A DNA stretch of 64,000 bases, from NCBI RefSeq assembly GCF_000189635.1, contig NW_002476416.1, positions 1 through 64,000 on the forward strand. Direction: 5' to 3'. This document shows, in pieces, positions 3,018 to 51,095 of the stretch. Below the pieces are notes generated by a model. The model was not told the origin of the DNA, searched no databases, and saw only the letters and a list, made by a program, of their open reading frames with translations. Positions within the stretch are counted from its first letter, which is position 1, and each line of letters begins with the position of its first letter. The position numbers and the translations under genes are program-made. This DNA comes from Tetrahymena thermophila SB210 (taxonomy: Eukaryota > Ciliophora > Oligohymenophorea > Hymenostomatida > Tetrahymenidae).

Positions 3018-4391
3018 ATGCATTCTGTTTTATCTTCTATTAATGATATATTCGAAAAAGGATTTATTGTGCAATTTGCATCAAATCCTTAATAACTAAC
3101 TATAACTGCTGAAAATATTTAATATGATTGTCTAGTTGTAAATGTATTTACATAAGAGTATCAGCTAATAGTCTAAAAGCTAGCCTAATTTTACTAATAA
3201 ATAATTAAAAAGGGTTATCAAGAAATATCTTTCGCTATTAGTAAATTGAATTTTAATAATCAACAATACAAAGTAGACTAAGAGGAAGCAGATAATCAAC
3301 TATTACCTTACGGACTTTAAGAAAATTTTGAATAACTTAAAATTGATCAATATAACCTTTAAACTGAAGAAGGTGAAGTAAAATTTGACTAATGCCATTT
3401 TAAAAGTGTGCTAGAAAGTAAAAAATAAATAAAAAATATATCATAAAATGATGATTTTTCATATGACATTTATTAAAACTCTGATGAGAATATACTTCAA
3501 GAAGCCTTAAACAATTTAAGCAACTTAATTATGAATTTGCTGACTAAAGAGATAACTTTTAATACAACAATAGATTTTTAACATTTTAGAGAATTCTTAA
3601 CAAAAGATATTGTAAGCTTTAAAAATATTAAGTTTATAGAATCACAAAGGCTTTATCATGTTTTTGATTATACTTAAGTTGAAAATTAGTTTATTAATAA
3701 TTCTAATAAATATTCATTTCTAATAAGTTTGATTGAAAGAAGAAATTTAGCACTCCACCTAGAAAATTTGGATGTGGTGATTGAATGTTAAAATATAAAA
3801 TACCATCCACAAGAGTCTAATTGGTTTTGCTATACTTGCTTTGATATAGAAAGAAAAGAAATTAAAGGAAGTGACTACTTTTCACAAAGAGTATTTGATC
3901 TCAAAAATATTAAGACTTAGAAATTAAATATTTACTTAATTTAGGATATACCTATATTCCACGATATAATTGTGCACCACACAATTAACAAAGTAAGAAT
4001 TTAAGGTTAATAAGGTTTTGGAGTTAATTTTGTTTTTAAAAATAACTCTCACATCAACATTGTAGAATGGGATGTTGAACTATATTCGCTTCCTTCTACA
4101 ATTTATCTGCTGGAACATTGTTTTTAAGGTAGAATAGGTCATGTGTATTTTCTTAATTAATCTAGACATACAATAATTGATAGCTTTGTTAGTTCAAACA
4201 TATTTTCATCTCAAATTTCATACTCTTTTAAAGACTGCTTAAACTATTAAGGCAGAGCTTCAATTTTCAAGGAGTTTCAGATTCTACTCAATTATAGGTT
4301 TATCATCATACTCTAAGCAATATGCTCATATAAACTAGGCCAGTATTTAAATATTAGTCCTTTGAGAATAATTTAAGACCTCTACTTTTGA
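3018..4391 (+). CDS. Unrecognised protein, copy 1 of a tandem pair
   Basis: A single-exon frame of 457 residues with many TAA/TAG glutamines, from ATG at 3018 to the first in-frame TGA. I do not recognise the family. It aligns throughout with the protein at 4909-6444. Shared blocks include IKFIESQRLYH, a segment near DLKNIKTQKLNI, NNSHINIVEW and CFQGRIGHVYF, and both proteins end QDLYF. The alternating hydrophobic pattern in the C-terminal half (NIYLIQD, NFVFKNNSHI) suggests a beta-rich or repeat-type fold, but this is inference. No signal peptide or membrane segment is obvious. It has no acidic/basic coiled-coil insert, unlike its neighbour. It most probably arose by local tandem duplication. 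Confidence 0.85.
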
Positions 4392-4908: not shown

Positions 4909-6444
4909 ATGGATACATTTCAAGCTATTCAAACTATATTTGAATAAGGATAAAATATAAAATTTACTTTAGACCATTAACAACTTCTAATTGAAAGTGA
5001 AAATGCTCTATCTGATCACTTTGTTCTTCACGCATCTTCCTTAGAGTATTAGCTATTGACTCAAAAGCTCGCTACTATTTACAAATAGCTCAATATAGAG
5101 GCTTACTAAGATCTATTCTCAATAATTGATTATTTGAACTTTCAAAAGAATTTAGAAATTTAAGAAGAATTAGAAGAAGTCGAAAATGAACAAAAAAAAA
5201 TAGAAAATAAACTCGAAGAAGAAAATGAGCAAGAAGAAAATGAAAAAGAAAAAGAAATAAAGAGAAAAGAATAAAAAAAGAGAGAAAAAGAAATAAAGAG
5301 AGAAAAAGAAATTTAGAGAGAAAAAATAGATACAATCGTTAGATCATAAGTTAAATAATCCTTAAAATATCCAATAAAAAGAGAAGAAGCTAAATTTAAA
5401 AATTTATAATAGTAATAACAGCATTTTGAAGAGATATTATTTAATTAAAATCTTAATCCAATATTAAGGACTATTTTAGAAAATGAAAAATATGAGAGAC
5501 CTAAATATTGCAAAGCAACTTAAAACAAATTCAAAGCTATCTTAGACAAACTAAATTAATTGGTGATAAATATGGTATTAAAAAACAACAAATTTAGTAT
5601 CTCAATAGATTTTCACTACTTAAGAGAGTGTTTAACTAAAAGCAGATTATCGTTTGAGAGAATAAAATTCATAGAGTCATAGAAACTTTATCATCTAAAT
5701 TCCGAATGCTCCATGTATTAATTTGACAATTCGACTAATGAATATACTAGCTTAATAAACTTTCTAAATGAAATAAATTTATAAATAGATGTAGAATAAT
5801 TAGATATATCAATAGAATATTTAAATTTGTTATCTCATGATAGTTATGATGGTACAGATCTTTGTGGTACTTGTTATGAAATACTATGTGAAGAAAAAAG
5901 ATAAAATTTCTTTAAATCAAAATTAATTGACCTGAAAAATATTAGAGCTCATCAGATCAACATAAATTTAATGCAAAATTGTTCTGTTATTCCTGATTTA
6001 TCAATCTCCAATATTGTAAATAAAGTAAAATTCACAGGATAAAAAGGGGCTGGTGTCTATTTTATTTTTGAAAATAATTCTCATATCAATGAAGTTGAAT
6101 GGGCTGTTTAAGAATTTTCTCTTTAGAAAACTCTGTACATTTTTGATAATTTTTTTTAAGGTAGAGTAGGGCATTTAAGCTTTACTAACTTGTGCTAAGA
6201 GTCATTTTACAATAATTTCTTTCATCCTAGATGCATATTTTCATCGTTAATTACATACTCATTCTTTTCTCCTTAAAACGACATTCAAGATGATGAAGAT
6301 GATAACACTCTTTCCAAAAGTATTTAACTTTAATAATTGCTTAATTAAAAATTGATTATCTTATTATAGGGTATAACTTTATATAAATTAACAAATTCAC
6401 TAAATATAAGCCAAATTAGAATATATCAGGATTTATACTTTTGA
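4909..6444 (+). CDS. Unrecognised protein, copy 2 of a tandem pair
   Basis: A single-exon frame of 511 residues, paralogous to the gene at 3018-4391 and in the same orientation. The start is the ATG abutting the AAAT repeat; the N terminus (FQAIQTIFEQG) lines up with the SSINDIFEKG of copy 1, which supports it. Residues about 85-150 are a highly charged E/K/R coiled coil absent from copy 1, followed by a QQQQQ run. The C-terminal 300 residues carry the shared blocks IKFIESQKLYH, NNSHINEVEW and FFQGRVGHLSF and end QDLYF. An acidic stretch (DDEDD) lies near the C terminus. Function is unknown; it looks like a ciliate-specific family expanding in place. Confidence 0.85.
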
Positions 6445-7137
6445 GCATAATGAATGAATGAATAAATTAATCAATCAATTCGCTAAAGATGTTGAAAATT
6501 AAGTTATAACTTAATATAGATAAATATATATTTAGTTCTAATACATTTAATTATAGCTTATTTAATAGTATTTTAATGCTTGTTTTTTATATTTGAAAAC
6601 TTAAGTAAGATTTTATCTTTGAACATTTTTAAAATTAGATTAAGTTATTTATCTAAACAGGGGTTGCTAAGTTTTAGGAAATGAAAATACCAAAAAAATT
6701 TTTGTGAGAGTTATAAAAATCACATTTTAAGAAATTATTTTAAATAATAATTAACCCCTTTTATATATTTTTAATTTTTAATTTCTATCTTGTTGTCTAT
6801 ATGTTTATCTATCTATGAACTCTTAAAAACTAAATTTCTTCTATTAATATTGTATTATTTGATAGAATTTCTATAGCACATAAGACCTTTCTTTTTTGTA
6901 TGTAGACAAGTAAATAAAAAATATCTATTTATTTTTGAAAAATGAAGAATAGAAATATTCGGGTTAAAATAAGAATTCTTCAAAAAATCTAAATCTAAAA
7001 CGATTACATTCTAATATATAAGTTACACTACTAATATATACATATATTTTTAGCTTTTTATTTGCTAAATTTAGGATATTTGGTGATTTTCTTTAAAAAT
7101 AATCTTATCATGATTGATCAGTCAAATAGCCAATCAA
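6445..7137. other. Gene-free interval, start of the duplicated segment
   Basis: No gene is visible. From about 6720 the sequence becomes alignable with about 12125 onward (shared AACTCTTAAAAAC, ATTGTATTATTTGATAG, TGTAGACAAG). This marks the left edge of the tandem duplication. Confidence 0.6.
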
Positions 7138-7326
7138 TCATTATTTTTAGGGTTTTTTGTAATTTTCAAGCACATATTTTTTTTCTTTTTCTATGCATTC
7201 TTATAAAACAGCAAGCAATTAGTTACATTTTGATGGATTATTTGCTTCCCTCATGCAAGCGGATACTTAGCAACCATAAGTATGGCATCTTTATTCAGCA
7301 TAGTTATGCAATTTAATAGGATCCAT
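7138..7326 (-). CDS. Small twin-CX9C protein, CMC4-like (copy 1)
   Basis: A 62-residue intronless frame on the minus strand, ATG at 7326 and TGA at 7138. It has five cysteines, at 14, 19, 24, 34 and 44. C14-C24 and C34-C44 are both CX9C, the twin CX9C (CHCH) pattern of small proteins of the mitochondrial intermembrane space that are imported and oxidised by the Mia40 pathway. The extra cysteine five residues after the first (CHTYGC) matches my memory of CMC4, so I favour a CMC4-type protein. The two copies differ at four positions, all synonymous on this strand, although the flanks have diverged. A longer-looking frame on the opposite strand is a shadow. Confidence 0.85.
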
Positions 7327-8233
7327 CGAACAATTTTAGTTTATATTAAAAATACTGATAAAATTTACACTTAATTAACTAACACAAATTTATTTAATTA
7401 ATAATTATTATAAAATTTCTAAGTAAAAAATTAAATTTATCAATAGAATTTGCTGAGAATATTTTTTCTATAAATAAATAAAATATTTTTTTATTTATTG
7501 ATTTTATTTTTTATTCTAATTTTCTAAGCAATAAATTTAAAATATAACCATCATTTATTTATTAATTTATTTTGGTATAAAAATATGTGTAAACAATACT
7601 ATATAAAATACATGCATATATATTAAGATTGTGTTTTATCTAACTTATAATAGACTTACTTAGTTAAAATTAAATTAATTATTGGCTTACATACATACAA
7701 ACTAATTAAGAATTAATTATATATTTTCATAAGAGAAATATTTAATTAATAATGGAATAAAAAATAAATTATCAAAAAATTTTAAGTTTATTGATTAATT
7801 TTCTAGTTTTAAGAAAAAAGAATATCTAAATATAAAAATAAATATCAAGTAATTAATTAGTATATTTTCTGTATAATATATTGTCAATTTAAATAATACA
7901 TTTATCATAAATATTCAAAAAAAGATATAATTTTGTATTTTCTAAAACAAATTTATTTGATAGACTTATATATTTCATAGCTTATTTAATGTTCTGTTAG
8001 AAAATAATGCTTTTAATTTTACAATTTTAAAAGATAGATTTAATTTTAAATATGTTTTAAAATATAAGCTAAATAAAATACACATTTAAGCATTCTTAAA
8101 ATTAAAAATATAAAAAATATTATCTATTTTTCAAATTAAATATTAATATTAAAATTTTGTACAAATATAAAGATCATATTTGACTTCATTCAATATTTTA
8201 ATTTTAAATTAAAATTTTAAAAGATTTACTAAA
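7327..8233. other. Divergent intergenic interval
   Basis: This lies between the minus-strand CX9C gene and the remains of transporter A. It is AT-rich, no gene is seen, and it is alignable with 12689-13629. It presumably contains the promoters of both neighbours. Confidence 0.6.
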
Positions 8234-9022
8234 ATATCATATTTATTTTATAATATTGCTCCTTAATTAAAATAGAAACTTTTTAATTTTGAAAAAAATT
8301 ACTCAAAGAGGGCTGTAATTTTCTATGCGTTATTGAGCATAGAATCTTTCATATTAATGCATTTCTTCTTTTCCTTAGTAAAAACTAAATACTCTTCAAT
8401 TCAAATAATTATAGGATTTATTTTAAATTCATTGTATTGCTAGGTAAATTAGGTACCTATTTATAGCGAAAAAAGTTATATTTTTAAGCTTGTTACTTAA
8501 AGTGCAATACAACCTGGCTTGCGTGTTATTTATATGTTAACTTACTTTAAACTAATGAGCTTTTCTGATGGCTAAATTAATTTGCAAATACTAATCCTAT
8601 TTGGACAAATTTTCTAGCTGCTATTTCTTTTGGTGAATAGTTATCTAAAAAAGCAATTGGATTTTGCACTTTATCATTTATGAGAATTATATTAGTTAGT
8701 TAGTAGACCTCCTTTCTTATTTTCTGATAATACTGAATATTAAATAAACTAGAATTAATTATTAGAAACTTTAAATGAACTTGCAGTAATTTATTTGTTG
8801 TACCAGTTTAAATTGTTGTTAGAAAGCTTTCTCACTAACTAAATATAACAGAGCTATGCATATGAAGTACAGCTATAGTGATGTTTTGATGTTTAACTCC
8901 CCTATGGAATAGCTAAAATATCCTTATTAATAGAAGTTATGGTTTTTAAAAATCAGGTTATATTAACAAGAGCTATTGGTTCTATTATAATTATTTTTGA
9001 AAGTATCGGAGTTATTATTTCA
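8234..9022 (+). pseudogene. Decayed EamA-type transporter A (copy 1)
   Basis: This aligns along its length with the intact transporter at 13630-14577. The start codon position reads ATA (8234-8236) and the stop position reads TCA instead of TGA (9020-9022). Small indels shift the frame several times. The stretch coding for NMRM near residue 60 is missing, and about 150 bp covering the region after MHMQYSY is deleted. Recognisable pieces remain, for example NPIWTNFLAA and KKAIGFCTLSF. It is a host-gene pseudogene produced by the local tandem duplication, not a retrocopy, since flanks and order match copy 2. Confidence 0.88.
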
Positions 9023-10259
9023 TAAAATTTAAAATTAACCTGAAATAATTTAATAAATAATAAAAATCTATTTATCTTTTTAAATAGAAACTTTAATCTA
9101 GTAAATAAAAATAGAAAATTCATGTTAGATCTAAAACTAAATTTAGATTCATATATTTAATTGGATAAATTCTTTGTATTTCTGCTATTTTAATGATATT
9201 AATTTCAAATTAAACTTTCAAGTGGTAGAAAATAATAAAATTAATTTGTTTTATAATAAATTTCTTTATCTGATTAACTTAATTAAATCGATCTAAATAT
9301 ATATAAATACTTCATCATTATATTTAATGATAACATTTTTTTAATTTTTTTTTAATATGCAATAAATTTTGTTCCTTTCAATTAGTTAGTCACTTTTGAA
9401 TATTTATTTATTTATATTTAATAGATAAAAAATTCCATAGTTTGTTGTTGATATAATTTATTTTTATCATTTATTTACTTTTTTGGCAAATGAATACTTA
9501 CTTATTTTAGCTAGTTAGTATAAATATTTTTTCTATTTACTTTTAAATTATTTTAAAAATAACCACAAATTTACTTTCTATTTCAACGCAAATAATATAT
9601 TTGCCTTTTATTTTAATAAAGTAAATTTTTAAATTTTCTATATGATAATTGATTGATTGATTCTCTTATCATAACATAATTACATATTAATCTAAATTTA
9701 ATTTAAAAAGGTTATTGAAACTATATTTTTAATTTTTATTTATCTTCGAAATAGATGTAAAAAATAAACTAATTTTTATCTCTACATATTTAAGCCAATT
9801 TTATGACATAGACAAAAAATATTTTATGTAATGATATGAAGTATTTGAAGCTAAATTAAGCTGGTAAATAATTATGTAAATTAAATATGTCCAAAACTAA
9901 ATTTTATTTTAGCACTTTATGTATTACGATAAATTAATAATAAAGTAAATTGATTAATTAATCACCAAAGTATCATAATACCAAAAATAGATTCATCAAT
10001 ATTTAAATTTACCACAAAAGTAATACCAAAATTAAAATAGACAGGCGTAATCCATGAGTTTAATTAATAACCTATTATATGTATTTAATTTAAAAATTTG
10101 AATTCATAATTTGATTTTATCAGTAGTAGAAAACGCAAGGCTATCAGCTAATTAAATAATGATATTTTAAAAAATATCTAATATTTTATAGAATAAATAA
10201 ATTTTAAAGAATAAATAAATTTATAAAATAAATTTTAACATAAAAGCATATCCTCTCAA
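9023..10259. other. Gene-free AT-rich interval
   Basis: No gene is seen between pseudogene A and transporter B. Patches align with 14578-15868, as expected for the duplicated segment. Confidence 0.6.
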
Positions 10260-11201
10260 ATGAAAAATCTTGATCAATTTTATTTAAAATTTTAAGATGT
10301 CTTTGAACACCTTGAATAAAGCAACAAAAAGAAAACTGCCATATTATATGCAGTAGCTAGCTAAGTTTTCTTTACAGTTATGTATTATTGTGTTACCCTA
10401 CTGAAAGGAGAGTACTCTTCTATGCAAATAATCAATATGAGAATGATTCTTGGCTTTATTTTTAATACTCTGTATTGCTCTGCGAATAAGGTTGAGGTTT
10501 ATAGTGATTAATCTAAAGTTTTTAAATTACTCACCCTTAGAGGTTTACTTGGAGGTCTAAACATGACTTTTGTTTTTACTTGCTTTACATTGATGACTAT
10601 TTCTGATGGTTCTATCCTTGTTAATACGAGTCCGATTTGGACTAATTTCTTAGCTGCAATTTTTTTGGGCGAACAATTATCTAAAAAAGCTTTTGGGTTT
10701 TGTATGCTTTCCTTTTTTGGTATAATATTAGTGTGCAGACCTGCTTTTTTGTTTGGATAGTCAACAAGCTCTTAAGATTAAAACTAATTTCTTGGAACAA
10801 TTTATGGATTAGCAGGAAGCCTCTTTGTTTCACTAGTTGCAATTGTTATTAGAAAACTTTCTAAATACAACTGTAAAGGGGCTATGCATATGCAATATCA
10901 TTATTTTATCAGCATAATTTTCACTTCTGTAATCCTGCTTACTGACAGTGAAAGACCTTTTATAATTACATTTAAATTCTGCTATATAATGCTTATTTTG
11001 TCATTTAGTGGCTTTGTGGCTTAACTTTTGTAATCTAAAGCTCTTTCCCTTGAAAAAGCTTCTATAATATCTCCTATGAAGTATCTACAAGTGCTTCTCT
11101 CTTTTATGATTGATATTTTTGTTCTTAAAAGTGAGATGTTTATGACCAGTATGGTTGGTGCTGGTCTAATTATACTAGGGAGTGTAGGTATTGTTATGTG
11201 A
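10260..11201 (+). CDS. EamA/DMT-family transporter B (copy 1)
   Basis: A single-exon frame of 313 residues starting MKNLDQFYLKF. It has about ten hydrophobic segments arranged as two five-helix halves, the layout and size of the EamA drug/metabolite transporter superfamily (SLC35G-like in animals). Typical features are NMRMI before helix 2, SDGSILVNTSPIWT, FLGEQLSKK closing the first half, and the second-half equivalent QSKALSLEKASIISPMKYLQ. The substrate cannot be predicted; the location is a membrane. Its nearest relative is the copy at 15869-16810, with the same length and few substitutions. The A-type genes (13630-14577) are more distant paralogues. Five or more in-frame TAA/TAG codons confirm the ciliate code. 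Confidence 0.9.
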
Positions 11202-11539
11202 TAGATTATTAACTAACTAGCCAGTTTTCTTTTATTTATTATAGAATAGACAAATCACTAATAGTAAATGCGTTTAAAATATTAATGCAATTTTGAATAA
11301 AAGCTAAGCCAAATTTTAAAATATTACAATAAAAAAACAAACAAACAAAAAATTAACAAATAATATATTCTAGTCATCTATCTAAAAAATACCTCATCAA
11401 ACTACTAAATTTATTTTATTCAATTTTCTAAAGTAATCTTATTAATTATAAATTATAAATACTATATTTTCATACTAAATTGTTACGTTAATTTTTTATA
11501 ATTTGATAAAAATTTCAATAATTACAAATTTTTTACATT

Positions 11540-11748
11540 CAGAAAAATTTTTCAAAATTTACTTTAAAAAAATGACAAGTTATATTATGAATAAAATGTA
11601 TATATTATTTCAAATTTTTTATTTTAAGAATTTAAAACTTTCTATAAATGCAAAAATGAAGCTGTTTGTTTTAAGCTAATTTAGCTTTATTTAATATGTA
11701 ATTAAGATATATTATATGCCTTTAGTAAATAAAATAGGTATCTCACTC
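11540..11748. mobile_element. Remnant related to the 1424-1732 MITE-like element
   Basis: The right part aligns with the right part of 1424-1732. Shared landmarks are TTAAGCTAATTTAGCTTTAT, ATTAAGATATATTA and a closing segment ending TATCTCACTC. Its reverse complement begins GAGTGAGATACC, close to the GAGTAAGTTGCC terminus of the other copy. No matching left terminus or clear target duplication is found, so it is probably truncated. It sits at the junction between the two duplicated 5.4-5.6 kb units. Confidence 0.5.
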
Positions 11749-11768
11749 AAGATTTTTATATTTTAGAT

Positions 11769-11836
11769 CAACTTATATTTATGCTAATTTGTGTGTAGAC
11801 TCTGCTTTAAATGAATTAGAGTTTAAATATAAGTTG
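11769..11836. other. Perfect 13-bp inverted repeat
   Basis: CAACTTATATTTA at 11769-11781 is repeated in inverted orientation as TAAATATAAGTTG at 11824-11836, with a 42-nt spacer. It could form a stem-loop or mark an element end; no function is assigned. Confidence 0.6.
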
Positions 11837-12499
11837 TTGTTGATGATATTATTTATATTAAGTGAATAAATAAAACTGATAATATTAGATTTTAGTTGTA
11901 ATTTATAAATAAGCACATTATTTAGAAGTAAGATGTATTACTCTCTCTCACTCTCTCTTTAAAATGAATTATTAGAATTGTTTTATTGCTTTTAGTTTTA
12001 AAATAATTTAGGTTTTAGAAGGATTTTTCAATTATCGGTTTATTTATGAAAATTAAATAATCTAAAATATGATTTTTTTTTCATATTTTATTAAAATATT
12101 TTTATTTATAAAATACATATATAATATTTTAATAAATTATTTTAAATAATAACTAATTAATTCCTTATATTTTTAATTTTTAATCTTCTTGTCTGTCTAT
12201 CAACTCTTAAAAACAAAATTTATTCTATTAACATTGTATTATTTGATAGATTTACATAAAATCTTTCTTTTTTGCATGTAGACAAGAAAATAAAAAATAT
12301 TTGTTTTTGAGAAATGGAGAAGAGCAAAATAATATTCAAAAAAAGAATTATTCAAAAAAAATATAAATCTAAAATGATTGCATTCAGATATATAATTTAT
12401 TCTACTAATATATACATATATTTTTAGCTTTTTATTAGTTTTATTTAAGGTTATCTTGTGATTTTCTTAAAATTAATATTATCATGACTGATCAATCAA

Positions 12500-12688
12500 T
12501 CATTATTTTTAAGGCTTTTTGTAATTTTCAAGCACATATTTTTTTTCTTTTTCTATGCATTCTTATAAAACAGCAAGCAATTAATTACATTTTGATGGAT
12601 TATTTGCTTCCCTCATGCAAGCGGATACTTAGCAGCCATAAGTATGGCATCTTTATTCAGCATAGTTATGCAATTTAATAGGATCCAT
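12500..12688 (-). CDS. Small twin-CX9C protein, CMC4-like (copy 2)
   Basis: 62 residues, ATG at 12688, TGA at 12500, no intron. The predicted protein is identical to that of 7138-7326. The four nucleotide differences change AAA/AAG, CCC/CCT, AAC/AAT and GGT/GGC codons without changing residues. Cysteines at 14, 19, 24, 34 and 44 give two CX9C motifs flanking a short turn (MREANNPSK). The C terminus is basic (YKKPQKQ). The likely location is the mitochondrial intermembrane space, by family. It is transcribed divergently from transporter A of the same unit. Confidence 0.87.
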
Positions 12689-13629
12689 CCAACAATTTTA
12701 ATTAATATGAAAAATACTGATAAAATTTGCTTTTAGCTAACAAAAATTTATTTAACTAATAATCTCAATTATTATTATCAAAATTTCTAAGTAAATGATT
12801 AAATTTATCAATAGAATTCGCTGAGAATATTTATTCTATAAATAAATAAAAATATTTTTTATTAATTGATTTTATTTTTTATACTTATTTTCTATGAATT
12901 AAATTTAACCATCATTTATTTAATTTGTTTTTTATTAAAATATGTGTTTAAGATCCCATACATACATGCAGATCAAATCTGTATTTTATTAAATTCTGAG
13001 ATTTGGTTTGTTAAAATTAAATTAATAATTAACTTACAAATTAATTAAGAATTGAATAATTAAATGCCTGTTTTGATAAGATAATCTGTAATCAATGCAT
13101 AAAAATAAATTCTCGAAATTATTTAACTTTATTATATAAATTCTAACTTTAAAGGGAAAAAAAAAAATAAATAGAAAAATTAAAATAAATATCTAGTAAT
13201 TCTTTTTATTTCTGTAATATATTTTCTTAATTTAAATAATATATTTAAAATTGATAATATTATTTTTATAAAATATATTTATGGATAAAAAATTAAAAAA
13301 TCGACATAAATTTGCTATGTGTAAAATTTAAATTTTTTTGGTAGACCGATCTATTTCATTATTTATTTAATTTTCTATGAGAAAATAATGCTTTTTCATT
13401 TACAATTTGAAATTTATTTTGTTTAATTTTAAACCTGTTTTAAAATAGATGACTATAAACTAAAAGGCATATTTACACTTTCTTAAATAATGTAATTTGA
13501 AATATAAAAAAATACTATCTATTTTTCAAAAATGTTTATCTATATTAAAATTTAATATAAATATAAAGATGATGTTTGGCTTCATTCAATATTTTAATTT
13601 TAAATTAAAATTTTAAAAGATTTACTAAA
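12689..13629. other. Divergent intergenic interval
   Basis: AT-rich and alignable with 7327-8233. The short frame at 12866-13048 has no support. It probably carries promoters for the CX9C gene (-) and transporter A (+). Confidence 0.6.
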
Positions 13630-14577
13630 ATGCAAGATCTTAATAATTTTGTTCCTAAATTAAAATAGAAACTTTAGAATTTTGAAAAGAATCACTAAAA
13701 GAGGGCAGCAATATTTTATGCAGTATTGAGCTAAGTATGTTTCACTGCAATGTATTTCTGCGTTTCTTTATTGAAAACTAAATACTCTTCAATTCATATA
13801 ATTAATATGAGGATGATTATAGGATTTATTTTTAATTCATTATATTGCTAGGTAAATTAAGTGCCTATTTATAGCGAAAAGAGTTAAATTTTTAAGCTAC
13901 TTACTTTAAGAGGAATACTGGGTGGCTTGGACGTTATTTGTGTATTTACTTGCTTTACACTGATGAGTGTTTCTGATGGCTCTATTATTGTAAATACTAA
14001 TCCTATTTGGACAAATTTTTTAGCTGCTATTTTTTTAGGTGAATAGTTATCTAAAAAAGCAATTGGCTTTTGCACTTTATCATTTATGGGAATTATATTA
14101 GTTAGCAGACCACCTTTCTTGTTTGCTGATAATTCTAGTAATTAAAAAAACTAAAATTAATTATTAGGAACTTTATATGGACTTGCAGGTAGTTTATTTG
14201 TTGCATCAGTTTAAATAGTTGTGAGAAAGCTTTCTCACCAACTAAAATGTAACGGGGCTATGCATATGTAGTACAGCTATATCATTTGCATATTTTTAAC
14301 TTCCATATTATTAATAAATAACAATGAAAAACCTTTTATTTTTAATATGAAATTTTTTTGCATAATTACCATTCTTTCTTTATGTGGATTTGCTGCTTAA
14401 CTTTTGCAATCAAAGGCTCTCTCTCTAGAAAAAGCTTCTATAATTACTCCTATGAAATATCTATAAATACTTCTATCATTTATAATAGATGTTATTGTTT
14501 TTAAAAATCAGATAATATTAACAAGCGTTATTGGTGCTATTCTAATTATTTTTGGAAGTATCGGAGTTATTATTTGA
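13630..14577 (+). CDS. EamA/DMT-family transporter A (copy 2, intact)
   Basis: A single-exon frame of 315 residues starting MQDLNNFVPKL and ending IIFGSIGVII. It has two repeated five-helix halves. INMRMIIGFIFNSLYC, SDGSIIVNTNPIWT and GEQLSKKAIGF in the first half, and QSKALSLEKASIITPMKYLQ in the second, match the B-type copies and the EamA pattern. It is therefore a polytopic membrane exporter/importer of the drug/metabolite transporter superfamily, substrate unknown. Its tandem-duplicate partner at 8234-9022 has decayed, so this is the only working A copy here. The start is supported by conserved alignment with the B genes. Confidence 0.9.
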
Positions 14578-15868
14578 TAGAAATTAAATTATTTCAATAA
14601 TAAAAATCTACTTATTTATTATAACTATAAATTTCAATTTAGCAAAAATAAATATATAAAATTAAAGAGAACTTAATATTAAATTATATTTTCATTTTAT
14701 TGTATAAATTATATTTTTTTGAGTAATAAAAAAATTATTTTATTTAACAAAATTTGATAAATTCTGAGATCAAATTCTTTGTATTTGTGCTATCATAATT
14801 ATATTCAAATAGAAAATAAACTTTCATGTGGTAGAAAATAAACAAAATAATTCGTTTTACAATTTCTTTCATGATCAGATCAACTTATTTAAGATGATAA
14901 TAATAATATACATCTATAAATAGTTCATCATTGGAAAATAGAATGATAACATTCTTTTAATTTCTTTTTAGTACGCAACAAAGTTTGTTCGTTTTACTTT
15001 ATTTCTTATGAATATTTAAAATGAACAAAGCAAAAAATTCCAATATTTTTTGTTGATATAATTATTTTTATCATTTTATTTACTTATTTGGTGAGTGAAT
15101 ATTTATTTTAGCATGTATATTTTATTAGTTTACAATTTAATTTGAAATTGCTTTGAAAATAACCATTAGCTTACTTTCTATTCCAACACTAATAATACAT
15201 TTTTCTTTTATTTTTAATAAAGTAGATTTTTTTAAATATTCCTTAAATAATCAATATACTAATCCATTCCTACAGGATAAATTAACTACCTTTTACTCTA
15301 AATTTATATTTAAAAGGTATACACATTTTGTTAAAACCATTTTTTGTGTTTGAATTTACTTACGAAAAAGATAAAAAGTAAACAAAGTTAAAGTTCCACA
15401 AATTTAAGCTAATTTTAACAGAGATTTACACAAGAGGTTTTATCCAATAAAATAAAGTTAAGTTGGTGCCAATAGTTAATGAACTTCTAGTATGTGCAAA
15501 ATTAAATTTAATTTGATAGTATTTACGTAATTACATATTGTGTATTATGATCAATTAAATTGATACATAAATTAATTAATTAATTTATCACCATAGTGCC
15601 GTAATACAAAAAATAAATTCATCAATAATTAAATTAATCAACATATTGCCGTATTACCAAAATTTAAATTAATAATATAGATAGGTATATGGTCCGAATT
15701 AATATACAACGTATTTATTTAATCTAAATATTTGAATAAATAAGTTAATTTTATCAATAAGAAAATGCAATGTTGTCAACTAATTAAATCCTAACCTGAG
15801 CTTTAAAAAAGATCTTATATTTAAAAAATAAAAAATAAATTTTTAACATAAAAAAAATATCTTGGCAA
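14578..15868. other. Gene-free AT-rich interval
   Basis: No gene is seen between transporters A and B of unit 2. The frame at 15153-15353 is AT-rich and has no counterpart in unit 1. Confidence 0.6.
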
Positions 15869-16810
15869 ATGAAAAATCTTGATCTATTTAATTTTAAACT
15901 CTAAGGCATTTTTTAACACTTTGAATAAAACCATAAAAAGAAAACTGCAATATTTTGTGCTGTAGCTAGCTAAATTTTCTTTACAGCCATGTATTTTTGT
16001 GTTACATTGCTAAAAGGAGAGTACTCATCTATGCAAATAATCAATATGAGAATGATTACAGGCTTTATATTTAATACTATGTACTGCTAAACAAATAAGA
16101 TAGAAGTTTACAGTGATTAATCTAAAGTTTTTAAATTACTCACTCTTAGAGGCTTACTTGGAGGTCTAAACATGACTTTTGTCTTTACTTGCTTTACATT
16201 GATGACAATTTCTGATGGCTCTATCCTTGTTAATACAAGTCCTATTTGGACTAACTTCTTAGCTGCAATTTTTTTGGGTGAGCAATTATCTAAAAAAGCT
16301 GTTGGATTCTGTATGCTATCCTTTGTCGGTATAATATTAGTATGTAGACCTGCTTTTTTGTTTGGATAGTCAGAAAGCTCTGAAGATAAAAATTAATTCC
16401 TTGGAACAATTTATGGATTAGCAGGAAGCTTCTTTGTTTCACTAGTTGCAATTGTCATTAGAAAACTTTCTAAATACAATTGTAATGGGGCTATGCATAT
16501 GCAGTATCATTATTTTATCAGTATATTTTTCACTTCGATAATTCTGCTTACCGACAGTGAAAGACCTTTTGTAATCACATTCAAATTCTGCATTACAATG
16601 CTTATTTTGTCTTTTAGTGGCTTTGTAGCTTAACTTTTGTAATCTAAAGCTCTTTCCCTTGAAAAAGCTTCTATAATATCTCCTATGAAGTATTTACAAG
16701 TGCTTTTCTCTTTTTTAATTGATATTTTTGTACTAAAAAGTGAAGTATTTGTGACCAGTATAGTTGGTGCTGGTTTAATTATTTTAGGTAGTGTAGGTAT
16801 TGTTATATGA
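15869..16810 (+). CDS. EamA/DMT-family transporter B (copy 2)
   Basis: A single-exon frame of 313 residues, the same length as 10260-11201 and alignable without gaps. It has about ten membrane segments. The motifs NMRMITGFIFNT, SDGSILVNTSPIWT, FLGEQLSKKAVGF and KASIISPMKYLQ are kept. Differences from copy 1 are concentrated at third positions and in the N-terminal 15 residues. It is a membrane transporter of the EamA (drug/metabolite) superfamily with unknown substrate. In-frame TAA/TAG positions are mostly shared between the copies, which argues for glutamine decoding. Confidence 0.9.
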
Positions 16811-18192
16811 AATTTAATTAATTGGTTAGGTAACTTACTTATTTATTTAGATAAAATAGATAAATTATTAATAACAAACGCATTCAAAATACTAATGTAA
16901 TCTTGAACACAAATCGAACCTATTATCAAAATATAACAAAACAAACAAACATTATTTTCTAGTCATCTAAAAAATACCTCATCAAACTGCTAAATTTATT
17001 TATTTATTCAATTTTCTAAAATAACCTTAATTTGATCTTTAAATTATAATAATATATTTTATACAAAATTATTGTATTAATAATTATATCAATTGTAAAT
17101 TCTATTTTTTTATCTTCATTTTCAAAATTTAAATATTTCTAAACGAAATTACATAACAAAAGAGTTGTGTTTTTTAAGTATCATCTTTCCTATTTATTAT
17201 TAAAGAAAATTTATGGTATGTGAAGAAATGTGAATAAATAAAATTTTGAAATTAATTAACATATTTCACTTAACTTTCAAACAAAATTTTTTACTTCTTG
17301 GGACAAATTAATTTAAGAAAAAAAAATCAGTATTTGTTTAGATTCAAGAATTTATTTTCTAATATTAAATTAATATCTTGAGTAAAATCACTCAAAAAGC
17401 TTATAAATTTAACACTTGTTTGATCAAAAATAATAGATGTTTTTTTCAACTAAAATTATTAAATCATTTCTCTTTTGGCTTTATATAGAATTTTTGTTTT
17501 CTACATAGGCCAAGATAATAAAATTAAATAACAATAATAAATTTAGCTTTAAGTAACTTCATATTTTTAAATTATTTACCTTAAAATAAACTTTAATAAA
17601 TATATCATATCTTTTTATATTGCTTAATTAACTTATCTTCTTCCCTTTTTAATTAAATTTATAATCATTTACATTTTTCATAAAGGAAAAATAAGGTTCT
17701 ACTAACAAAAATTGAACAAATTTACATTACTTTAATTCTAAAAAATAAACATTATTTTTGATAAAATCAATAAAAAGAGAGTCAGAAATAATGAATTTCT
17801 ATAATGTGAATGAAAAGAGCTTTTTAAGAACTAATGTAATTATATTATAATTATTATGATTGATATTTAAAAATTTAAATAACTTTAGAAATATATACTA
17901 TATTGATAAATTATAAAATATGTTTTTAAATCTCATGTAGACTAAATAAGTTATTTTACAATTAAAATAGACAATTTTAAATCTTTTTTAGCCAATTAAT
18001 TCAAAAATTATCTATATTATTAAGCTTTTATGTCAAAATATTTTTTTTTAATTAAATAAGAAAAACACTCAATTTATTTAATTAATTAAATTAGCTACCA
18101 GTAATAATTACCTGAATAAAAAAATACTAAAAACATATTATCTTTAAATTATGTTTGATAAAACAAGTTATTTAGTTAGTTAGTTCGTCAAA
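16811..18192. other. Gene-free AT-rich interval
   Basis: The tail of duplicated unit 2 extends to about 17080; the rest is unique AT-rich DNA. No coding region, RNA gene or repeat is recognised. Confidence 0.6.
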
Positions 18193-49291: not shown

Positions 49292-51095
49292 ATGAATCCA
49301 ATAAGGTAAATTCAAAATCAATATGGATCTCCTAGTTAGCCCTCGCAAACCTAGCCATAGCCTTAGTCATTTTATTAGAATAATTTTTCTCCTCAGCATT
49401 AAATCTAACCTTAGCAAGTAATTTTACAGCAACAATTAAATATAAATCATCAGAGAGCAAGTTTTCCTCCTCCACCAATTATTTAACCTTAGAATTACTT
49501 TCCTCTTTTTCCATCTTTAAACCAGACTCCAACTTAGCAGTAATTTTAACAACAAAGAGGATTTGTTATTCCTCACAGGTATTTTCTAAGCTTTACATTT
49601 ATTTTATTTCAAATTAAACAAACTGAGTTAGTTAAATCACTCAAACTCAGAAATACATTAAAATATATAGAGAAGCAAATACATCTATTTTCACTATGGC
49701 AGAAGTGTAAGAAAGGCCTGAGTCTCTAGAATAAAACAATTTAAAGAATATGCAAGAATTCATGAATTTCATAGATACCTTTGCTGACAAAGATAATTAC
49801 TTCTGTTAAATTTGCCATAACATACTCTGGTAACCAGTAAGTTGCAATCATTGCAGTAAAATTTACTGTAGAGATTGCTTGAGTCGTTGGGTTGATTAAT
49901 ACTCTACCTGTCCAACTTGTAGAGACAGATTTGAATTGAAGAAAGTTGATAAATCAATTACAAATAACCTCTCTAAGCTTGTCTTTATTTGCAATGCTCA
50001 AAGTAGTGGCTGCACTGAATTTATAAATTATGATTCACTTTTAAAGCATCAAAATACATGCTTGTATTAATCTCTACATTGTCCTAATATTGGTTGTGAT
50101 TTCTAATCCATTCGCAAAGTAATATTGCAACAAAAATAAAAATTGATTTGCTCAAGCAAAATATTTTACATTTCATACAAATATTTTTCTATTCTAACTT
50201 AAATGTTAATTTGAAGAATTTGAGTTATTCATTTCTTAATTCACAAAAATGGTGTTTATTTATTATAAGTTATCTATTTTATTTATTGCCATTATCTTTT
50301 ACTGATAATATAAATCTTTTCTTATTAACTTTATCTAATAAATAAATACCCATTTTTCAATTATTCTTAATTATTTATTTAATTCTTGATCAATTACAAA
50401 ATATTTTTATAAATTTAAGAAAAATGTATTATAAATTATTATGAAAAAATATTTACAATATTAATTAGGAAATGGTTGACCATGAGAAAATTTGTCCTCA
50501 CTATTAGCTAAAATGTAAATGGTGTGAGAGATCTATTAAGAGAATGAATGAGGTTTAGCATGACCTTATATGTGAAATGAAAAAATTAGGGTGCGAAAAC
50601 GAAGGATGCTAAATCACTTTAACTAGAGCAGAAATGAACATTCATATTTAGGAATGTCCATACAATATTTAGAAATGCAATTTATGTAACCAAGAATTTA
50701 AACTAAAGGATCTTGCTAGACATTAAGAATGCTGTGATTTCAAAATAGAATAATGCAAAGGTTGTAAACAGAGTATGTATAAAAAATAGATTGTTTAGCA
50801 TGAAGAAAACTGTGAAGAAGTAGAGTTGATATGTCCTGACTGCACAGATGTTATACAAAGAAAAAACCTAGCCAGTCACGATCAAATAACTTGTTTGAAA
50901 AGAGGTTAAAAAATTCTATTAGAAGCTAAAACTCAATTATAATGCGAAAATGCTTGTCTAAAGAAAGACATAGAAACATTAAAACTATGTGTTGCCTAAC
51001 TCTATTCTGAGAGTATTTATTTTTTTACTTTTGAATTAAATACTTAAAAATCATCTTTTAAATAAAGTCTAAGATATAGCCTCAGATAAGCATGA
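49292..51095 (+). CDS. RING finger + TRAF-type zinc-finger protein
   Basis: Three exons, 49292-49578, 49671-50118 and 50469-51095, giving 453 residues. Residues 1-96 are a Q/P-rich disordered leader (QPSQTQPQPQSF). A C3HC4-type RING runs from C141-QI-C144 through CNHCSKIYCRDCL to C176-PT-C179, so E3 ubiquitin-ligase activity is likely by family. From about 195 to 400 there are repeated C/H fingers of TRAF type (CTEFINYDSLLKHQNTC; CPHYQLKCKWCERSIKR; CPYNIQKCNLCNQEF), each ending with H-x3-5-C. A short coiled coil and an unrelated C-terminal tail follow; there is no MATH/TRAF-C domain. The RING + TRAF-zf architecture is common in ciliates. Intron 2 is 350 nt. Confidence 0.9.

Follow-up and report, generated by a model that had tools for sequence, protein, structure and literature searches.

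A very short twin-CX9C gene on the minus strand, retained in two tandem copies in Tetrahymena thermophila

Among the described proteins with twin CX9C motifs, CMC4 is presented in PMC7909247 as an intermembrane-space protein of unknown function; the same paper reports no respiratory defect after its knock-down in yeast and an interaction with SCO1 in human cells. For ciliates, PMC5679390 states that Mia40 homologues are lacking but that Erv1 is present, and CHCH subunits of the Tetrahymena ATP synthase are reported in PMC7583250. One paper mentions both Tetrahymena thermophila and CMC4; judged by its title, it concerns a meiotic cyclin. Here we describe a gene of this known kind in T. thermophila, which is real, fairly ordinary and very short. 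We hold with good confidence that it is an ordinary, apparently intronless minus-strand gene present in two tandem copies, and that its product is most likely a soluble CHCH protein of the mitochondrial intermembrane space.

The analysed stretch of DNA, hereafter the window, comprises 64,000 nucleotides (bases 1-64000 of contig 131 of the genome) and was translated throughout with table 6 (the ciliate code, in which TGA is the one stop codon). An exon of NDUFV2 in this genome agrees at 168 of 168 residues with chain 7tgh_V2, which is also present in 8b6f, 8bqs, 8gym and 8gzu, and the window is accordingly taken as nuclear DNA of T. thermophila or, less probably, of a very close relative. Repeats and alignment revealed a tandem duplication of a three-gene unit at 6712-17250, with approximate outer limits; unit 1 extends over about 6.7-11.6 kb and unit 2 over about 12.1-17.2 kb, and paired repeats are spaced 5.35-5.61 kb from start to start. 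Each unit holds the CX9C gene on the minus strand and two transporter genes, the EamA transporter A and transporter B, on the plus strand. Transporter A is intact in unit 2 (13630-14577, 315 aa). Its counterpart in unit 1, at approximately 8241-9035, is broken: seven of nine indels shift the frame, ATA stands opposite the ATG, and one in-frame TGA occurs among 253 comparable codons, in agreement with the decay of this copy noticed in the preliminary description. The transporter A pair gave pN 0.135 and pS 0.203. Both copies of transporter B are intact (10260-11201 in unit 1 and 15869-16810 in unit 2, 313 aa each), with 0 indels in 942 bp, dN 0.060 and dS 0.354. The EamA assignment by Pfam covers two of the three intact transporter copies, while the unit 2 copy of transporter B is assigned to the family because it resembles its counterpart in unit 1. 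Both CX9C copies were thus kept with the same product while the adjoining transporter copy decayed. Further upstream on the plus strand, the ORFs at 3018-4391 and 4909-6444 (457 and 511 aa) look alike by eye, both ending in LNIS..RI.QDLYF, and are possibly a further tandem family; the 511-aa ORF had no Pfam match at E <= 1.

Copy 1 of the CX9C gene lies on the minus strand at 7138-7326 (ATG at 7326-7324, TGA at 7140-7138) and copy 2, also minus, at 12500-12688. The two translate from ATG to TGA into an identical protein of 62 aa and are distinguished by four silent DNA differences, so that the minus-strand twin-CX9C protein recognised at these positions in the preliminary description was recovered as described. 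Its cysteines are arranged as C14-X4-C19-X4-C24-X9-C34-X9-C44, which gives the two CX9C motifs C14-X9-C24 and C34-X9-C44 and one extra cysteine, C19, in the middle of the first. A six-frame scan for CX4CX4CX9-10CX9C returned two occurrences in the window, both of them the CX9C copies, and the pattern was found in none of 40 simulated windows built from the window dinucleotides. A looser twin-CX9C pattern with a spacer of 2-25 residues occurred six times, four of them away from the CX9C copies; the simulated windows, which are gene-free, averaged 0.3 such matches and never had more than 2. Two of these four other matches fall in a cysteine-rich frame near 50.6 kb (CPYNIQKCNLCNQEFKLKDLARHQECC..., about 50650-50780, plus strand, frame 3), which from its residues has the look of a TRAF-type zinc finger.

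When the 62-aa protein was searched against the 101-Mb genome (445 contigs) at E <= 10, both of the two candidates were the CX9C copies themselves; as introns are not handled by this search, the number is a lower bound. The GC content of the ORF is 29.6% in either copy and 12-20% in the four flanking stretches measured. Scans of the window for tRNAs and Rfam families found nothing. The base at -3 of the ATG is T in both copies, which is unusual for Tetrahymena starts and was counted against the reading as a gene.

Profile and structure searches placed the protein near known families at sub-threshold scores. The best Pfam match was CMC4 (PF08991) with 16.6 bits and E 0.0099, below the curated cut-off of 28.9; the CMC4 profile search that had been proposed beforehand therefore put this family on top but fell short of a family assignment, and the unrelated Colipase-like family scored nearly equally (E 0.012). 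In the PDB the best match was plant NDUFS5, with E 0.023 to 0.047, and the nine rows at E <= 10 included no entry of the set 7tgh, 8b6f, 8bqs, 8gym and 8gzu, which we take to be Tetrahymena thermophila respiratory structures. The CHCH chains of the Tetrahymena ATP synthase were likewise unmatched at E <= 10, provided that their entries are in the PDB copy searched. The protein was also scored against 16 CX9C proteins of human origin and the core of a plant NDUFS5, using 500 full shuffles and 500 shuffles in which the cysteines were fixed. The score was reached by 0 of 500 cysteine-fixed shuffles for the plant core (the best of the 17, in a test that is biased because this core was chosen as the best database hit), by 2 for CHCHD7, 14 for CHCHD3 and 19 for CMC4; by full shuffles CMC4 came next after the plant core with 0 of 500. 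For ten of the 16 human sequences, more than 100 of the 500 cysteine-fixed shuffles did as well as the protein itself.

Of five AlphaFold2 models predicted from the single sequence, the best has a mean pLDDT of 85.6 and shows helices at residues 3-13, 15-27 and 31-55; the other four had mean pLDDT values of 77.6, 66.7, 62.7 and 58.6. None of 43 Foldseek matches in the PDB reached E <= 0.001. Some of the weak rows (E 4.5-9.4), among them 1bgy_H and 3cwb_H, are cytochrome bc1 chains that we presume to be the hinge subunit.

A narrower form of our explanation, compatible with it, is that the protein is a ciliate-specific CX9C protein of the intermembrane space and orthologous to no opisthokont family. 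The sub-threshold scores to known families speak for this, as do the lack of a cysteine after C44, where CMC4 has a place for its third disulfide, and the spacer of X9 for X10. Against it stand the position of the extra cysteine in CX4CX4C, which is that seen in CMC4, and the first rank of CMC4 among the Pfam families. We regard the ciliate-specific form as a serious possibility, and lean slightly against it.

Relatives were also sought more widely. Eleven pattern matches in viral contigs included no confirmed relative, and neither the viral nor the genome contig collection yielded a genuine one from elsewhere. Of 30 pattern matches in the genome-contig collection one remained; it lies on the strand opposite a 435-aa ORF in a Chloroflexi MAG, which by its look we take for a CoA-transferase, and it contains the patterned stretch by which it had been selected. 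This match was attributed to chance. Family searches of the own genome gave no candidates with CMC4 and Ndufs5, and one and three matches with COX6B and CHCH, respectively, none of which came up to the cut-off (best E 7.05 and 0.326). Since even the known copies escaped the CMC4 search and Ndufs5 located nothing despite the existence of 7tgh_S5, the absence of other CX9C genes is not shown by these results.

The comparison between the two copies showed that the ORF is constrained as a protein. The CX9C copies differ at 4 of 189 positions (2.1%) with 0 indels, whereas the seven further segments aligned from 6700 to 8000 carry 16-31% substitutions and 1 to 4 indel events each; the strong constraint claimed for this gene was borne out. 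All four differences are synonymous third-position changes on the minus strand, as had also been claimed, which corresponds to 0 changes at 151 nonsynonymous sites and 4 at 35 synonymous sites. A random substitution in the minus frame is silent with a probability of 0.19 unweighted, or 0.23-0.27 with transitions weighted 2 or 4, and at these two weights four silent changes out of four are expected by chance with a probability of 0.003-0.006. For 0 changes in 151 nonsynonymous sites the chance is ~1e-13 at the flanking rate of 0.18 and ~1e-4 at the rate of transporter B. At silent sites the CX9C ORF has diverged less (0.114) than transporter B (0.282; P about 0.016, in one of several comparisons), a difference that may reflect codon preference, chance or a partial gene conversion.

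Maximal-segment scoring of the whole unit alignment ranked transporter B as the best conserved segment and an island around the CX9C gene as the second. The island covers 7131-7366, with its unit 2 counterpart at about 12493-12728, and consists of the ORF, 7 bp past the stop and 40 bp upstream of the ATG. Its edges depend on the mismatch penalty: they were 7131-7366 with penalties of 5, 6 and 8, 7131-7526 with 4, and 6812-7540 with 3. At the upstream edge, ~30 bp upstream of the ATG, the motif AAATTTTATCAG is common to both copies (about 7355-7366 and 12717-12728, minus strand) and is possibly a promoter element, part of the 5' UTR, or the 3' splice site of a 5' UTR intron. A longer protein from an upstream start was considered, as the frame stays open for ~13 codons, but two of the four differences there alter a residue and such an extension is therefore not favoured. 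The CX9C gene may have a spliced 5' exon.

The island could instead be a gene-conversion tract between the copies, owing nothing to selection on the protein, and the silent divergence of 4 in 35 sites, below that of the transporter B pair at the P value given above, would fit such a tract. This is however hard to reconcile with four of four ORF differences being silent, which is rarely expected by chance, and with a zone of low divergence that nearly matches the ORF plus about 40 bp. In addition, at the flanking rate of about 0.18 simple arithmetic predicts ~6 silent changes where 4 were seen, so that the silent deficit of the ORF is weak. We therefore consider conversion as the sole cause very improbable; it may be an addition to selection and cannot be a substitute for it.

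That the protein is the NDUFS5 subunit of Tetrahymena complex I was suggested by the plant NDUFS5 match in the PDB (E 0.023), which has the same CX9C-X9-CX9C spacing, and by the first rank of the plant core in the cysteine-fixed shuffles, where the choice of that row was biased. The S5 position in 7tgh is, however, occupied by a different chain, 7tgh_S5. The plant NDUFS5 core finds this chain at E 0.0022, so that in Tetrahymena complex I a protein other than the one described here fills the S5 position; the 62-aa protein itself does not match 7tgh_S5 at E <= 10. Ndufs5 (PF10200) was also absent from its Pfam matches at E <= 10, and its score against human NDUFS5 was reached by 230 of 500 full shuffles. 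An identity with NDUFS5 is accordingly hardly to be expected.

The strand of the gene requires some care, since the preliminary description took the longest frame at this place to be on the plus strand and called the CX9C gene hidden and antisense. Among the ATG frames of at least 60 aa found with table 6, those that span the whole CX9C intervals are longest on the minus strand, at 256 aa (7138-7908) and 299 aa (12500-13399), both in register with the CX9C protein; on the plus strand the corresponding frames have 138 aa (6942-7358) and 78 aa (12484-12720). A rule based on length thus tends to the right strand with the wrong start. The warning that it would call the wrong strand applies beside the gene and not over it: the first 45 bp of copy 2 are overlapped by a plus frame of 361 aa (12644-13729) and those of copy 1 by one of 170 aa (7282-7794), and at copy 2 the rule could instead pick the spurious plus frame beside the gene. 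Pfam searches with two of the plus frames gave either nothing or, at best, an unrelated family at E 0.029. As no gene could be recognised on the plus strand, 'antisense' is a misnomer, as is 'hidden' where no plus frame covering the gene is longer.

The copy differences had further been described as mostly amino-acid-changing on the plus strand. This is correct for two plus frames, including the 138-aa one, in each of which all four differences change the amino acid. In the third plus frame (offset 1) all four are silent, because its third positions sit opposite those of the minus frame. With one plus frame equally silent, substitutions alone do not choose the strand. Codon-usage scores, trained on seven window ORFs, were 17.7 and 17.1 bits for plus offset 1 and 13.5 and 14.8 for the minus frame, slightly higher for the former, and did not tell the two frames apart. 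As judged from the DNA, the strand is settled by the cysteine pattern together with the ATG and TGA limits: one edge of the island falls 7 bp beyond the minus TGA, and directly upstream of the minus ATG the residues begin to change, with two of four differences altering a residue in the 40 bp to the other edge. That the island instead codes on the plus strand in this mirror frame, with the minus CX9C frame as a by-product, has a negligible probability despite the equally silent differences and the higher codon-usage scores, since in copy 1 the first ATG of the mirror frame falls at 7193 within the island and its best Pfam match, an unrelated family at E 0.029, falls for the most part outside the ORF, the frame runs on past the ORF into diverged sequence and is stopped by TGA at different codons (106 in copy 1, 70 in copy 2), the island edges follow the minus-strand limits just given, and the cysteine layout of a known family is seen in the minus product only.

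For the minus-strand gene, we infer a location, disulfides and an import route as follows. The reduced 62-aa protein would pass the TOM pore into the intermembrane space, where oxidation would trap it; disulfides C14-C44 and C24-C34 would clamp two helices into a helical hairpin (CHCH), and C19 would be left unpaired. An Erv1-only relay would drive the oxidation, Erv1 being the presumed oxidant because ciliates are reported to have it and to lack Mia40. Erv1/ALR-family domains were found in the same genome with three matches on two contigs (C242, 84930-85322, and C278, 334321-334512; best E 1.3e-14), which suggests at least two Erv1-type oxidases. By analogy the protein may have a role in the biogenesis of respiratory complexes. 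Orthology with CMC4 is unproven and lies outside what this explanation claims.

A probable intermembrane-space CX9C protein is thereby added for a ciliate model organism. In a lineage reported with Erv1 and without Mia40, the 62-aa protein is a usable test substrate for Mia40-free trapping. A more far-reaching reading is that it is an intermembrane-space CX9C factor peculiar to ciliates, that its fifth cysteine is odd, that an Erv1-only relay folds it without Mia40, and that two copies are kept under selection for an identical double dose. The dose part rests on the identity of the two proteins as set against the silent divergence of about 0.35 in the transporter B pair, and we consider this reading as a whole unlikely. 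The locus also illustrates that the length of an ORF says little in a genome with one stop codon, that real genes are well recognised by comparing duplicate copies, and that one antisense frame may stay indistinguishable when substitutions are the sole criterion.

Set beside the known systems, the protein resembles CMC4/p8-MTCP1 (human P56277, yeast Cmc4) in its size of 62 versus 68 aa, its twin CX9C motifs and its predicted helical hairpin. The extra cysteine that divides the first motif (CX4CX4C) is shared as well, with C14, C19 and C24 here and C7, C12 and C17 in the human protein, as counted on the sequence printed in PMC12114033. The spacer between the motifs is X9 here and X10 when counted on that human sequence, although a table in the same paper writes X9. 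Unlike CMC4, the protein has no cysteine after C44 and so no CC after the second CX9C, and it has no partner for the third disulfide, given for the human protein in PMC12114033 as C39-C50. With plant NDUFS5 (7ar7_e, 7a23_j), its best phmmer match in the PDB, it has the CX9C-X9-CX9C spacing in common, but the match is weak, the plant protein is without the cysteine in the middle of the first CX9C, and Tetrahymena has its own S5 chain in 7tgh. From twin-CX9C/CHCH proteins in general it differs in spacers and flanking residues, and it agrees with them in carrying two CX9C motifs, which would lie on two helices, CHCHD7 and CHCHD3 beating most cysteine-fixed shuffles. We concluded that the 62-aa product is a twin-CX9C protein with a CMC4-like cysteine layout but lacking the third disulfide of CMC4, for which an identity with CMC4 is no more than suggested.
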